Assembly: GCA_947588355.1 (NCBI GenBank) | Contig: CANPYI010000001.1 | Coordinates: 141,771 to 205,770 of the forward strand | Origin: an uncultured Clostridia bacterium | GTDB taxonomy: Bacteria; Bacillota; Clostridia; Christensenellales; UBA1242 | DNA length: 64,000 bases | Direction: 5' to 3' | In this document: positions 19,783 to 53,345 of the stretch, piece after piece | How the letters are laid out: each line of letters begins with the position of its first letter | Position numbering within the stretch: position 1 is the stretch's first letter | Notes under the pieces: model-generated | Databases searched by the model: none | The model's input: only the letters and a program-made list of their open reading frames with translations | Told to the model about the DNA's origin: nothing | Made by a program: the position numbers and the translations under genes

Positions 19783-19810
19783 TTGACAAACACCCCCCCC
19801 GTGTTAAAAT
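19783..19810 (+). promoter_or_regulatory. Promoter with C8 homopolymer in the -35/-10 spacer
   Basis: TTGACA (19783-19788), aacaCCCCCCCCgtgt (16 nt, C8 at 19793-19800), TAAAAT (19805-19810); RBS and ATG at 19842 follow. Confidence 0.8.
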
Positions 19811-19841: not shown

Positions 19842-20555
19842 ATGGCAACAATAGAAAATTATGTAAATTTGCCAAGCGAAGCAGATTGGGAAGAAATTAT
19901 GACAAAATTCCCTGCTTTTGCAAGTGCGTCACTTTCAGCAAAAGCCAAGAAAGACTTGGCATTTGAAAACAGTGATTACAAAGCAGGATACTACTTCACC
20001 CGCACTGCGTTGCCGGGCTCGTCCGACGGAGTGAAGTATGTAGGCACTGACGGCGACCTGCGCTGGACCCGCAGTTACAACTATGACACCGGGTTGCGCG
20101 TCGCTTTGCAAATAATCTACAATCCAGAATGCAACCTTGTCAAAGGTTGCAAAAAAGTTTCCAGAACTGCTGAAATTTGGGACAAGAAAAAAGGTGACAC
20201 AGTCAAAACAACAAGCAAAGCACCAGTTGTGACATTCGGAAAGAAAGACTATATTTGGCTGAACAAAGATGAATGTGAAAATGGCAAAGAAAAGTCAATG
20301 AGGCTTGTAAGTCTTGAACTTATTGCAAGAGCAAAACAATTTGACAAAGATGGAAATACAAATGACTACGGCAGTGAAGAGGCAAAAGAATTGAGACAGC
20401 AATGCCAATATAAAGCATTTGAATTTGCCACTGAGGAAGAAAAGGCAATGCTTGTTAAAGTGCGACTTTCCGAAGAAGACAAATATGAAAAAGCAGAGCC
20501 AATCTTGAAGACAAAACAAGAAAAAACTCATTCAGAAAAACCTAGAAATCGATAA
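19842..20555 (+). CDS. Hypothetical protein with DUF6273-like/C-type-lectin-like segment
   Basis: aaaggag RBS then ATG at 19842 (ORF track start 19809 is probably too early). YYFTRTALPGSSDGVKYVGTDGDLRWTRSYNYDTGLRVALQI resembles the W-x-R ... GVRPAL pattern of DUF6273-like proteins. Confidence 0.6.
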   Translation: MATIENYVNLPSEADWEEIMTKFPAFASASLSAKAKKDLAFENSDYKAGYYFTRTALPGSSDGVKYVGTDGDLRWTRSYNYDTGLRVALQIIYNPECNLVKGCKKVSRTAEIWDKKKGDTVKTTSKAPVVTFGKKDYIWLNKDECENGKEKSMRLVSLELIARAKQFDKDGNTNDYGSEEAKELRQQCQYKAFEFATEEEKAMLVKVRLSEEDKYEKAEPILKTKQEKTHSEKPRNR

Positions 20556-47028: not shown

Positions 47029-50000
47029 TTATTCTGATGGCACCCATGAAACATCTTGCATCGTCTTTTTAAGATTTGTGATGTGGTCTTCGGTGACTCC
47101 TTTAAGTTTTATGTCACGATATGCTCGTTGCATATGCCACAGTATATGTTCAAAATTTTTCACTCCTTCGTCTTTGTATTCACATTGTAAACGAATATAT
47201 CGTTTTTCCGTAAACAACTGACTTAAATCTGCCGAAACAGTCAAACCAAATAATGAATCGGATACTTTTGCGTTATCCAAGCGTTGACCATTTTCATCCA
47301 ACATTTCATAAGTCCATGCATAGCACCTGTTCCACGCAAGATCTTTATTTACTAATTTTGCACCATTACTCAATGTTGCTTGTTCTGCTTTTGCATAGTC
47401 TCCATCTTTCCATACAAAAACATTTCCGCTTATATTGCCCATTACAAATATCAACACATTTACATACAACCTATCGATACTTTTATCAGCATATGAACTT
47501 TTGCTAGCGGTGAAAGACTCGCTACCTTGCCATTCAAAATAATCTTTAACATTTCCTGCAATTTCGGGATATAACAGACCTATCAATCCATTTAAATTTT
47601 CGAGTCCTGTTTTGTTGGCAAAATTAAGAATCTCCACATTGCCCTTAAAATAAATTTTCGAATCATGTTTTGATTCACTGTCAAGAAGGATAGCCACACC
47701 ACTTTCAACAATGGTAATATTTTCGGCATATAACGGTTCGTTGTAAGGTAATTGTATAGCAGCCTTTGGTATGTATGCAAAAACTGTATTTTTGGTGTAG
47801 AACGCACCGCCTATTGGATTAAATTTGTAATAGTATGACAAATCGCAATAGTAAGCATAATTCATTTTAAGAACCATTTTTTGATTGCTAGCACTGATTG
47901 TTTCGTTTGGATTGGAGCATTTTATAACAGTATTATATGCCTTATTGACCGTAATGCCGTCGCTTTCGCTACTACCGCTCATTGATGCATTTTTTGCTTG
48001 AAAATTGACCTGATAACCATTGCCATATATCATTGTTTTGGCAAGGCCGTCAACCTTAGTCAAGAACAATCCATTTTGTGTAGCGTAATCAAATTTTTCG
48101 CCACTTTCATCGAGTTCGCCCTCGCCATAAAGATCGGAATGCAGAACAATATTGCTGCTACAATAATATCCGTTCGAATCAAAAACATTCACAAGTGTTT
48201 CATCTTGTAAAACATTGAAATTAAAGTGACAATTCTTTCCGCCTTCAACACCATCTCCAGCCACTACTTTTAAGAAAGCATAGGCATTTTTCGATGGTTC
48301 AATATCAATCCCACCGCCTTTGTTATCGACAGATTTGTGTTCCGACCAATTCTGTTGCTCATCAAAATTTCCAAAATAATCGTTGTAAACATCGGACTCA
48401 GACAATCCGCCAAAATTTCCAAAATAAATTCTTGCGTAGCCCTCTTCTTGTTCGGTGTAAACGTCAACCCAGATATAACCTTGGTCATTTTTTCCGCCTT
48501 GTCCAGATACTATAACATCGCCATCTTTCAAAACATATTCACTGCCTTCTTTGACAATTTTGTATCTTTTTTCATTGATCGTGACAGTGTCGCCAAGTTG
48601 AGAGGTCAAAATGCCCATGTCATCGTTTCCAACATAGCGAGAAAGTGTCCAACTGATTGTGTCCAGAGATGCTTGTGTTTCGTCGGCAATACTGCTGAGT
48701 GCTTTGAGTGGAACTTTGAAATAGTCAACGTCTTTTCCATAGTAACTATGTTTTGCAAACACTCTAACCTGTTGGTAGCCTTTGTGAATGTCCTCATCTT
48801 TTGCGCTGTCAAAACTTAAAGTATCATTCACAAATGTGATTTCCTGGAGGTTTACTTTGACAATTTGAATGGCAATCTGATGTTTGCCATAACTCATGCT
48901 TATTGTTTTAGTAAACTCCGCTTCCTTGTTGAAAGAAATCACAATCTGTTTTGCACTTGATGTATATTTTGCCTGTAAACCTTCTACATCTTCAAGATTT
49001 ATGCTGAAAAGTTTTTCAAAGTCGGCATCATTGCCAAAGCCACCTAAAAAGTTTTCAGTTTCAAAAACAATCTTCATTGTCAGATTGTTTTGAATATCAC
49101 TTGGCAAGATGTATGAAATATCCGCCCTGTCTTTCACAGTTTCCACCGTTTTGAGTGGTTTTGTTTCGGCATTTGCGTTTGTGAAAGATGAATCTATTCC
49201 AAAATCCTCAATGTCCACCTTTTCCAAGTGAAAAGACAGCAAAACATCATCACTTTTGAAAGTGATGGATTCAACTGATGCTGTGTCCAAAGTAACTTTG
49301 CCATATTCAGTGTCTTTCCACTCACCCATATCATTTATTTGATAGGTGATGTGCTCGTTTGAAACCTCTTTTCCATCATCTCGGTTTGGAGTGATTGTAA
49401 AGGAAAGTTTGTCGATCAACGTTTGATATGTTTCGTTTGCCTCAATCTGCGTGTCTCCACACAAAACTTCAAGTTTTTCGGCTTTTGCTTTTATACTTAC
49501 TTTCAAAATATATGTTTTTGTGCCGATGCTCAAATAAACACTCTGATTTTCACAAGTGTCTTTGCTTGTCAAAATTATGGTATTGTTTTGTCTTTCAATT
49601 ATAACATATGGACTCGTGTCATATCTTACAACAAGATTATCTGGATTTTCAAAAGAAAGAATAATTTTTTCGCCTATGTTGCTGAACTTAATTTCATTTT
49701 CATTTCCAACACCGGCAGTAAGTTCTTGATCTTCATTAAAAACCTTTACGTTGTCTTGCGTTGGCTTTTTGGTGATACGAAAAGTGTCTTCGTAAGTTGT
49801 TTTCAACGCGTCAGTTTCAAAGTCGTAAACTGTGGCATGCACAACAACGTCAATAAAACTGTTAAATTCTGGAAAACTTCCAATAAGTTTAAATTTTTGT
49901 TCCTTTTGGTCGAAAGAAATCAATTTTTGTGCGTTGAGGTTGCTTATACTTTCACTGTCAACATAGCAATCAATTTCGCCTATTTGACGGTCAGCACCCT

Positions 50001-50979
50001 CAAGATTGGTGAAATTTAAAGGCAAAAATTCTTTTTCAAGGCAGTCGTTGTAATTTATCTCTTTGTTCACAAAAAGCGGGCCAACGTAGTATCCATATGT
50101 AGAAACAAATTCTTTGCTTGCTTGCAAAGTGTTTTGTTTGAAATCGGTTGCTCTGACCGTAATTGTTACGCGACCCTCTTTTTTAAACGAAATTTTTCCG
50201 TTTTGATCAACGGTTGCGATGTCGTCGTTGCTTGAGGTGTATTCAAACGAAACATCGCAACTTTCTGGATTTGTTTTGATAGCAGGGAATTGAGCCTCCT
50301 TAAACGAGGTTGTAAACAAAGTTTTGTCAAAAACAAGCCCTCTCAGTTTGGCATGACAAGTTATTTCCGCCTTTACACTGATATCTTGATTGTCAACAGA
50401 TGTTGCAGTTACAATCGCCTTTCCATTTCCGACCGCAGTGACAAGTCCGTTTGAACTAACTTGCAAAATGCTGTCATCGGAACTTTTCCATTCTATAAAC
50501 TTGTTTTCCGCCTCTTTTGGAAAAATGCTGACAGAAAGTTGTGTTGATTCACCTTCGTACAAATCTCTCGGATACTCACTCATAACAAGTTTGTGAACTG
50601 ATTTGTCGGTTATGATAATCTTTCTTGTTGCTGTTGCGGTTTTGTTTTCTGTACTGCGCACTGTAACATAAGTTTCACCATAAAAAATCGGAGTAAGAAT
50701 GCCATCTTCGCTGACTTGCAACAAATTTTCATCATAATTTGTGTATTCAAGGCCGCGATTTGTGGCTTTAAGTGGCAAAATAGTGATTTGCTCGCCCAAA
50801 TTGTATGTTGGAGGATTTTGTTCGTCGTTCATGACAAGCACTATGGTGTCATTGGCGGAAAATTCCACCGCTTCAACATAAATGTGCGTGATAAGACTCA
50901 TGATCGCCCCGCTGACCAGAAGTATTGCCAGCAACAATAATGGCAGAATGATAATTGTGGAAATCATCAATTTTTTCAT
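47029..50979 (-). CDS. Large (1316 aa) membrane-anchored protein with Big_2-type Ig-like domains
   Basis: N-terminal TM; repeated phrases such as ENKFIEWKSSDDSILQVSSNGLVTAVGNGKAIVTATSVD and SFEYTSSNDDIATVDQNGKISFKKEGRVTITVRATD. Confidence 0.85.
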   Translation of the reverse strand: MKKLMISTIIILPLLLLAILLVSGAIMSLITHIYVEAVEFSANDTIVLVMNDEQNPPTYNLGEQITILPLKATNRGLEYTNYDENLLQVSEDGILTPIFYGETYVTVRSTENKTATATRKIIITDKSVHKLVMSEYPRDLYEGESTQLSVSIFPKEAENKFIEWKSSDDSILQVSSNGLVTAVGNGKAIVTATSVDNQDISVKAEITCHAKLRGLVFDKTLFTTSFKEAQFPAIKTNPESCDVSFEYTSSNDDIATVDQNGKISFKKEGRVTITVRATDFKQNTLQASKEFVSTYGYYVGPLFVNKEINYNDCLEKEFLPLNFTNLEGADRQIGEIDCYVDSESISNLNAQKLISFDQKEQKFKLIGSFPEFNSFIDVVVHATVYDFETDALKTTYEDTFRITKKPTQDNVKVFNEDQELTAGVGNENEIKFSNIGEKIILSFENPDNLVVRYDTSPYVIIERQNNTIILTSKDTCENQSVYLSIGTKTYILKVSIKAKAEKLEVLCGDTQIEANETYQTLIDKLSFTITPNRDDGKEVSNEHITYQINDMGEWKDTEYGKVTLDTASVESITFKSDDVLLSFHLEKVDIEDFGIDSSFTNANAETKPLKTVETVKDRADISYILPSDIQNNLTMKIVFETENFLGGFGNDADFEKLFSINLEDVEGLQAKYTSSAKQIVISFNKEAEFTKTISMSYGKHQIAIQIVKVNLQEITFVNDTLSFDSAKDEDIHKGYQQVRVFAKHSYYGKDVDYFKVPLKALSSIADETQASLDTISWTLSRYVGNDDMGILTSQLGDTVTINEKRYKIVKEGSEYVLKDGDVIVSGQGGKNDQGYIWVDVYTEQEEGYARIYFGNFGGLSESDVYNDYFGNFDEQQNWSEHKSVDNKGGGIDIEPSKNAYAFLKVVAGDGVEGGKNCHFNFNVLQDETLVNVFDSNGYYCSSNIVLHSDLYGEGELDESGEKFDYATQNGLFLTKVDGLAKTMIYGNGYQVNFQAKNASMSGSSESDGITVNKAYNTVIKCSNPNETISASNQKMVLKMNYAYYCDLSYYYKFNPIGGAFYTKNTVFAYIPKAAIQLPYNEPLYAENITIVESGVAILLDSESKHDSKIYFKGNVEILNFANKTGLENLNGLIGLLYPEIAGNVKDYFEWQGSESFTASKSSYADKSIDRLYVNVLIFVMGNISGNVFVWKDGDYAKAEQATLSNGAKLVNKDLAWNRCYAWTYEMLDENGQRLDNAKVSDSLFGLTVSADLSQLFTEKRYIRLQCEYKDEGVKNFEHILWHMQRAYRDIKLKGVTEDHITNLKKTMQDVSWVPSE

Positions 50980-50982
50980 ACA

Positions 50983-52585
50983 TTACACCTCGATTTTTCT
51001 GTATTTTTTGTCCACTGTAAACCAAAAAACAAGAAAGTTTGTCAGTGCGTAAACAAGCCCTATTGCCACAACAATAATATAGGCATAAGTACTTCCGTTT
51101 TCCATAATTTTTGGCAACAACAAACTGAAAACACCAAAAACACCTGCAATCAAAAGACCGATCATCAACATATATGTCACATTGATTTCTTCGGCATCGC
51201 CATTTGCCTTTGGCTTAAGGTTTGGATTGACAAGGTTGAGATTTATGCCATTGAAAACAAGCCCAAACACAAACAAAATTTGCGAAATTGCAAGCACAAC
51301 CATTTCAACAGCACTGACAAACTTCAACGCAATCAAAACAATCGAACTGACAAGCAAAGCACCAAGGCTGACAGCAACATTAAGAAAGCCCTTTATCAAA
51401 AGTTGTTTGCGATAGGAAACCGGCACCAATTTTGTTATGTAAAAATTTTTGCCTTCAATACTCAAAATTGTGGCAGCAAAAGAACCTATCATTGCCATAA
51501 ATACGGCAACAACAAGCATAGATGCCCCAAAATTGATTCCTTTGCCAATTTGAGCCTCGCCAACCATAGTGACCAGACGATTACAGAAAAACACCATTAC
51601 AGGTGTTGAAAGTGCAACGCCCAAATAAAAGTAAGAATAGGATTTTGTATGTAAAATTTCAAGAAAAGTGTGTCTGAAGATCGCTTTTCCGCTTGAATTG
51701 TCATCAATCTTTGAATTTCGCTTGCTGACTGTTCCGCCACCATCAAGTTCTTTAGTACGTATTTTTTGATAGACAAATTTTGCGACAAGCACGCCAAGTG
51801 CAATCAGAATTGCGCTTGCGCCAATTCCCCCCCCCCGCACCTATCCAAAAGTTTTCAAAGAAAATTATGTTTGCCAAATAATAGGCTGGATTGTACCATT
51901 TGTCGAGCCCGGTGAGCAATGACTGCCAAATTTCAAGTGTGCCTTGTTCCCAATTTCTGTGAATGAAAAACTGTGCAAGAACTGTGAGGATATAGTAGTA
52001 AAGTGCAAACAATCCTGCCAAAAGCAAGATGAAAACAATCAACTTTATTATGTTGTGTTTTTTAAGAAGCGAATTTATGTACATTATTGGAATTGCCAAA
52101 AAAACAGAAAGTCCAAACGGAATAAGCGGCATAAACAAAATTCCAAGGATAATGCCCAAAAAATATGTGAAAGTTATGCAATTCATCGCCCAGCCAAACA
52201 CCAACATGATTGGCAAAAGTAAGACTGCTGAATAAATCATAAGATCAATATAATTGAGGATCAAACAACTTACAAAAATCTTGAAAGTACTGAGCGGAAA
52301 CCTTGCAGTAATGTGCATATCACCAGGCCTGTACAGTCTGTTGATTTGCATTCCCGTTGCGGCAACTGTAAGTCCAATCACCAAAATAGTAAGAAAAAGC
52401 ACCGACAATCTTTTTGCGGAAACAACAATACTTGACTTTAAAACATAAGAAAGTCCCCAAACAAGTCCAAGCGCAATGACAACTGCCAAAAGTGCTGCCA
52501 CTGCAGTCATAATGGCATTTTTCTTGCTGTTGTTTCGGTTTAGACCCCACTTAAGTTTAAGTTGCAAACGGATGAAATCAAGCAT
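50983..52585 (-). CDS. ABC transporter permease split by a frame change at a G10 tract (5' part 51752-52585, 3' part 50983-51840)
   Basis: Two overlapping ORFs, each half of a multi-TM permease, join at GCGGGGGGGGGGAATTGGC (minus strand). Deleting one G gives a continuous 533-aa reading frame ...WIGAGGGIGASAILIALGV.... Confidence 0.85.
51827..51836. repeat. C10/G10 homopolymeric tract at the frame junction
   Basis: ccaattCCCCCCCCCCgcacc. Confidence 0.97.
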
Positions 52586-53297
52586 TGCTCACCTCGTTTA
52601 TTTCCATAAATTCTTTTTCAAGGTCAAAGTCTTTGTTTGTGCGTAAGTCAATCTTTCTGACAATTTGACCTTTTCGAATAAAAATAACAACATCGCATGC
52701 TTTTTTGACAGTTTCCAAACTGTGTGACGAAAACAAAACTGCATGTTTTTCATCAGCATATTCTCTGATAAATCTCACCAAAAGTGCCATAGTTTGAGGG
52801 TCAAGACCAACCATAGGTTCGTCAAGAACCCAAAGTGCTGGTTTGTGAACAAGTGCACCCAAGATACAAATTTTTTGTTTCATACCGTGTGAATAATTTG
52901 CAATTTGAGTGTCAAGAGCATATGCAATATTAAATTTTTCTGCAAGTTCGCCTACGGCATATTCTTTTTGCTCTTTGGTTGCGCCATACAAACTGCCCAT
53001 ATAGTTTATGTATTCTCTGCCGGTCAATTTGTCGTAAACGGAGTGGTCGTCAGGAACGTATCCAATAGATTTTTTTGCTTGCTCGCTTTGTGTATTAATG
53101 TCAAAACCATTCACTTTTATTTGCCCTTGCTGAAAAGGAAGGACTCCAATAATGCTTTTTATTATCGTGGACTTTCCTGCACCATTGCTTCCAACAAGAC
53201 CGACAACCTCGCCTGCTTTGACAGAAAAACTTACATTCGATGCGGAATACTTTTCGCTGGCAGGATACTTTTTAGATAAATTTTGGACTTTAAGCAT
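52578..53297 (-). CDS. ABC transporter ATP-binding protein
   Basis: GLVGSNGAGKSTIIKSIIGVL, SHGMKQKICILGALVHKPALWVLDEPMVGLDP. Confidence 0.95.
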   Translation of the reverse strand: MLKVQNLSKKYPASEKYSASNVSFSVKAGEVVGLVGSNGAGKSTIIKSIIGVLPFQQGQIKVNGFDINTQSEQAKKSIGYVPDDHSVYDKLTGREYINYMGSLYGATKEQKEYAVGELAEKFNIAYALDTQIANYSHGMKQKICILGALVHKPALWVLDEPMVGLDPQTMALLVRFIREYADEKHAVLFSSHSLETVKKACDVVIFIRKGQIVRKIDLRTNKDFDLEKEFMEINEVSNA

Positions 53298-53320
53298 AAT
53301 TTACTCCTTCACATTTGTTT

Positions 53321-53345
53321 ATTATAGTGCGGGGGGGGTTGTCAA
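53321..53345 (-). promoter_or_regulatory. Promoter with C8 (minus strand) homopolymer in the spacer
   Basis: Minus strand TTGACA (53345-53340), ACCCCCCCCGCAC (13 nt), TATAAT (53326-53321), upstream of the ABC ATPase gene. Confidence 0.7.

Follow-up and report, generated by a model that had tools for sequence, protein, structure and literature searches.

Neisseria meningitidis controls the transcription of surface-protein genes (porA, fetA and opc) through unstable poly-G or poly-C tracts in the core promoter (PMC2791445). The optimum spacer of porA is 17 bp; the opc tract is placed over the -35 region, and the involvement of a regulator has been suggested (PMC7864442). In Treponema pallidum the tp0126 promoter carries poly-G between its -35 and -10 elements and performs best at 17 bp, and the poly-G tract of tprL varies from 7 to 11, mostly 9 (PMC7864442). 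Mycoplasma species have a dinucleotide repeat in the promoter spacer of vmm and poly-A in the promoter region of vlp (PMC10502178). HPT_37 of Cutibacterium (Propionibacterium) acnes is a poly-C tract lying between -35 and -10; it is C5 in some strains and C7 in others, and a change in expression via spacer length was proposed (PMC4746626). The familiar mechanism of phase variation in Clostridia is the invertible promoter, as in Clostridioides difficile (PMC11868660); there Clostridioides comes up in connection with invertible promoters and signalling, and neither "spacer" nor "poly-C" occurs in the main text. In the literature searched, whose coverage was partial, we found no account of switching by homopolymer-spacer promoters in Clostridia or Christensenellales. 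This agrees with the first-pass annotation of the DNA studied here, which knew of no established mechanism of this kind in Clostridia.

The window, the whole 64,000-nucleotide stretch that was analysed, carries such an arrangement at 53321-53345. On the minus strand, positions 53345 to 53321 read TTGACA-ACCCCCCCCGCAC-TATAAT, the spacer being A-C8-GCAC and 13 bp long. Re-reading of the window sequence reproduced exactly the earlier description of two perfect hexamers around a C8 tract with a 13-bp spacer. The features of the locus are as follows.

53340-53345, minus strand: -35 hexamer TTGACA, perfect consensus (from the sequence)
53331-53338, minus strand: C8 tract in the 13-bp spacer (A-C8-GCAC), a member of the genus-wide class described below (from the sequence)
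53321-53326, minus strand: -10 hexamer TATAAT, perfect consensus, no TGn extension (from the sequence)
53304-53309, minus strand: Shine-Dalgarno sequence AAGGAG, 6 nt 5′ of the ATG at 53297 (from the sequence)
52578-53297, minus strand: ABC transporter ATPase (PF00005), first gene of the operon (ORF and Pfam)
50983-52585, minus strand: ABC permease-like membrane protein, in two frames split at the G10 tract (ORFs and ortholog comparison)
51827-51836, minus strand: G10 coding tract (C10 on the plus strand), which leaves the permease out of frame (sequence and ortholog comparison)
47029-50979, minus strand: 1316-aa protein with bacterial Ig-like domains (PF02368, Big_2), third gene of the operon (ORF and Pfam)

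The homopolymer thus sits between the -35 and -10 elements of the operon's own promoter, with the Shine-Dalgarno sequence and start codon directly after it; only 23 nt separate the end of TATAAT from the ATG of the ATPase gene, and AAGGAG lies between. Neither our own scan nor a consensus scan found another strong sigma-A-type promoter on the same strand within about 300 nt upstream. A weak candidate about 70 nt upstream (TTGCTT-16-TATACT with a TGa extension) fell below the scoring threshold, and alternative -35 elements that would give 16-18 bp at C8 are poor matches (at 17 bp TTAGTT, 2/6). The best explanation of the site is a sigma-A promoter that serves the ABC/Ig-like operon.

The permease gene ends 3 nt before the gene for the 1316-aa Ig-like protein. 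The G10 tract, also noted in the first-pass annotation as lying in this operon, is real, and leaves a permease ORF of 277 aa that is out of frame. All six permease orthologs with full-length sequence are single ORFs of 531-533 aa, and none of the 29 ortholog loci has a tract at the G10 position of its permease gene. The G10 at 51827-51836 is a possible second phase-variable site of the operon, which in its assembled state is predicted to be doubly down (13-bp spacer and frameshifted permease). Across the same 29 loci a C tract stands directly before the ATPase gene in two, from two other species (C7 with 17 bp; C9 with 18 bp), G tracts occur in several within TTGACA promoters farther upstream, and the closest orthologs (L058-L060) lack any tract; the presence of the tract therefore changes between orthologs. 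The comparison of the window promoter with its orthologs (13 versus 17 and 18 bp) is one with diverged orthologs only. The longest tract seen is G15, in the 21-bp spacer of a TTGACA/TATAAT promoter at one ortholog locus (L081:3074). The ortholog loci come from uncultured Clostridia assemblies with "Lapin" (French, rabbit) isolate labels, which suggests a rabbit-gut source.

A scan of 112 genomes of the genus, each about 1 Mb and one per species, located poly-C promoter spacers in 63 genomes and poly-G spacers in 51; the reversed-pattern controls gave one match overall and none, respectively. Outside the genus such promoters are sparse: a strict pattern was present in 9/376 other genomes of the same order, mostly as single matches, and 3/299 other genomes sampled across the phylum gave one weak match each. 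Single genomes carry up to about 14 tract promoters once duplicate -10 readings are removed. The assignment of the C8 promoter at 53321-53345 to a large, genus-restricted set of homopolymer-spacer promoters is supported at the level of sequence comparison. Some tracts (G097:C6:8431, G098:C2:111830, L036 and L122) are broken by one substitution, for example CCCTCCCCC and CCACCCCCCC; their total length is like that of uninterrupted tracts, and they could be locked, non-slipping derivatives. One viral contig (L240, IMGVR_UViG_2675903535_000002) resembles the genus class, its promoter spacer being 15 bp long with C9.

The source genome itself is rich in such tracts. In the window C8 runs give five overlapping matches (three tracts) where 0.15 are expected, and the perfect TTGACA-N10-22-TATAAT pattern occurs 32 times in the genome, compared with one match for the reversed pattern. 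A partial scan of C-run lengths returned one C6 and two C7; the genome has 14 tracts of C8-C10. Tracts above chance are looked for in a slippage locus, and here C8-C10 is commoner than C6-C7; because of this gap in length, the long tracts appear to be a separate class and not the tail of a decay. Half of them (7/14 tracts of C8 or longer) sit between TTGACA and a -10-like hexamer. A second poly-C-spacer promoter lies in the window:

19783-19810, plus strand: promoter TTGACA-AACA-C8-GTGT-TAAAAT, 16-bp spacer (sequence scan)
19842-20555, plus strand: 237-aa gene with no Pfam family, behind this promoter (ORF)

Near-copies of this gene and promoter occur elsewhere in the genome, with C9 in L090 and C8 in L022 (at a contig end). 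Non-promoter tracts of C8 or longer in the same genome were noted near position 1500 of L010, L012, L013, L014, L018, L019 and L020, that of L019 appearing also as L018:2700. These lie mostly within ORFs, frequently in the context AAATT-C9-GCA, and several fall at places where ORFs start or overlap in different frames.

The lengths of the promoter spacers follow a clear pattern. Among 222 C-tract promoters analysed in the genus, C9 accounts for 146 and C8 for 48, and a single tract is longer than C10; spacer totals run from 12 to 20 bp. The C-tract promoters with a TATAAT hexamer peak at 15 and 16 bp, and only 10/111 (9%) have the 17 bp that is found in 64/117 (55%) of ordinary TTGACA/TATAAT promoters from three genus genomes (Fisher p = 3e-14). 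A bias of the search pattern can be excluded as the origin of this shift, since in unrelated viral contigs promoter spacers containing C7 have the lengths of ordinary promoters, 17-18 bp in 29/34. The consensus state of the tract promoters would be sub-optimal, with one or two added bases restoring full strength. The typical C-tract promoter of the genus reaches 17 bp at C10 (C9-C11); the promoter at 53321-53345 does so only at C12. Its spacer is among the shortest: ten of the 222 promoters have 13 bp or less, and it lacks the possibly compensating TGn extension present in four of those ten. As C12 is needed here and only one tract in 222 exceeds C10, the locus may sit mostly OFF or be decaying.

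Homologous promoters differ in spacer length, both between species and between paralogs. A lipoprotein promoter common to five species, with 90-100% identity over the 400 downstream bases, has spacers of 16, 17, 17, 17 and 16 bp containing C9, TC9, CCAC7, C10 and C8T. Orthologous membrane-protein promoters in L136 and L151 have C7 with 13 bp and C9 with 16 bp, and in the source genome the promoter at 19783-19810 and its paralogous copy have C8 with 16 bp and C9 with 17 bp. Promoter copies with the same flanks within other genomes also differ by one base, G-tract copies included. Such one-base differences between species and copies are what slippage would predict. At strain level, a search of viral contigs for length variation found replicate contigs with a constant C7 and recognised no contig of the genus. 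In four genomes (G093, G048, G024 and G106) the same tract promoter recurs along families of surface-protein genes, its tract varying in length from copy to copy; several of the G093 copies are at contig ends, suggesting an assembly-breaking repeat family.

The genes behind the tract promoters are enriched in exported products. By a simple hydrophobicity-based signal-peptide rule these make up 33/90 behind tract promoters and 2/40 behind ordinary ones (p = 8e-5), the latter being a small control set of 40 products from four genomes, chosen for perfect-consensus promoters and not matched for promoter strength. Inspection by eye showed lipoproteins, and proteins resembling leucine-rich-repeat and Ig-like surface proteins, in the tract set, and many ribosomal and other housekeeping genes in the control set. 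Surface and secreted products are thus enriched behind the tracts without being the majority; the operon studied here encodes an ABC transporter and an Ig-like protein. Loss of mismatch repair, an optional feature of contingency loci, is ruled out as a cause: mutS is intact in the source genome (MutS of 875 aa) and there is therefore no hypermutator background. Genus genomes have one MutS-type protein, and most other sampled genera of the order have two, the second of which could be MutS2-like.

We regard a slippage-tuned promoter of the porA/tp0126 type as the probable explanation of the sequence at 53321-53345, because of the genus-wide class, the avoidance of 17 bp, the one-C differences between homologs and the enrichment of exported genes. 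Gain or loss of a C at replication would move the -35 and -10 elements farther apart or closer together. At C8, with 13 bp, there would be little transcription and the operon would be nearly OFF; longer tracts would give more, up to a maximum near C11-C13 (16-18 bp). The first-pass annotation had named the same range, and a maximum is indeed to be expected there, but C12 exceeds nearly all tracts of the genus. Tract promoters of the genus would rest at C8-C9, in most cases a base or two below the 17-bp optimum, and the rare +1 or +2 variants would then be expressed strongly, a form of bet-hedging. The earlier proposal of a transcriptional switch is supported in part, by the class, the homolog differences, the exported bias and the presence of the G10 coding tract; for this locus we infer that slippage is the cause, that it has an ON/OFF effect and that a promoter requiring C12 continues to switch.

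The class could be real and the promoter at 53321-53345 nevertheless dead or decaying, stuck at 13 bp with five non-tract spacer bases, in an operon that is being lost in this strain. A spacer among the shortest of the class, the requirement for C12, the permease frameshifted at G10 and the small genome would all fit. Set against these, both hexamers, the Shine-Dalgarno sequence and the remaining reading frames are undamaged, the third gene is an uninterrupted frame of 1316 aa, and the permease frameshift lies in a homopolymer, a revertible kind of site; we consider decay somewhat doubtful. Far less credible is an assembly or sequencing artefact, in which miscalled homopolymers would make both the 13-bp spacer and the frameshift unreal. 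The assembly does consist of 15 contigs and long homopolymers are generally error-prone, but dozens of genomes, each assembled independently, show the same order of hexamer, tract and hexamer, for which the reversed-pattern control is close to zero, the depletion of 17 bp is systematic, and a one-base miscall would still leave a spacer of 12-14 bp.

A different reading would make C9 or G9 a fixed operator or structural element, with a regulator or an unusual sigma subunit reading T-C9-G, 15-16 bp as the working spacer and the differences in tract length as minor drift. It draws on the sharp mode at C9, on a fairly constant tract start 3-4 nt from the -35 element, and on the stereotyped T-Cn-G context of promoter tracts (T before in 160/207, G after in 166/207). 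Tract lengths, as read from metagenome assemblies, cluster at C9 more sharply than free slippage might allow, a point against the slippage reading. The context is seen for tracts in promoters and in genes, and within the source-genome material it surrounds 75% of tracts of C8 or longer compared with 8-16% of C3-C5; a common origin, a slippage bias or a binding protein may be the cause. It is mainly for this shared context that we keep the operator in view. A fixed element is at odds with tracts that occur in either orientation, at several spacer positions and also inside genes, with spacer totals as far apart as 12 and 20 bp, and with homologous promoters that vary in length or have no tract; no regulator of T-C9-G was identified. 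On balance we judge it distinctly unlikely.

The slippage-tuned promoter compares most closely with porA, fetA and opc of Neisseria, which likewise have a homopolymer in the core promoter of surface-protein genes. Neisseria differs in being a proteobacterium in which few genes are involved and length variation has been measured; here many promoters per genome are concerned, in Clostridia, as read from sequence. The tprL mode of 9 in Treponema resembles the C9 mode of the genus, but the phylum is unrelated, the tprL tract is outside the spacer and only a few outer-membrane protein genes are affected. Mycoplasma vmm and vlp are alike in using promoter repeat length as a switch for lipoprotein genes, several per genome for vlp (PMC10502178); they differ in having dinucleotide or A tracts in a wall-less organism, in contrast to G/C tracts of 8-10 in AT-rich Clostridia. 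HPT_37 of C. acnes shares the poly-C tract in the promoter spacer, but is a single case with slow change along clades, not a repeated, stereotyped architecture. As a mechanism this is known; the novelty lies in the lineage, in how many such promoters one genome carries, in C and G both being used and in the offset from 17 bp.

Through gain or loss of a base, C or G runs in promoters of the genus probably raise or lower the expression of genes that often encode surface proteins. The chances seem to us about even that the genus has a promoter-level phasome, in which stereotyped C9/G9 spacers, up to about 14 per genome, stand before surface and accessory genes one or two bases short of the optimum, leaving most cells weak and rare slippage variants strong. 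The shared T-C9-G context may point to a specific origin or factor. From the systematic offset comes an idea, quantitative and open to test, of the way in which evolution fixes a switch's default state, and the tracts are short enough for direct typing in existing metagenome reads. It is also a warning that expression in these organisms is not readable from a consensus assembly. If true, the finding would mean that small-genome uncultured gut bacteria use simple repeats in the core promoter as a major device of phase variation.
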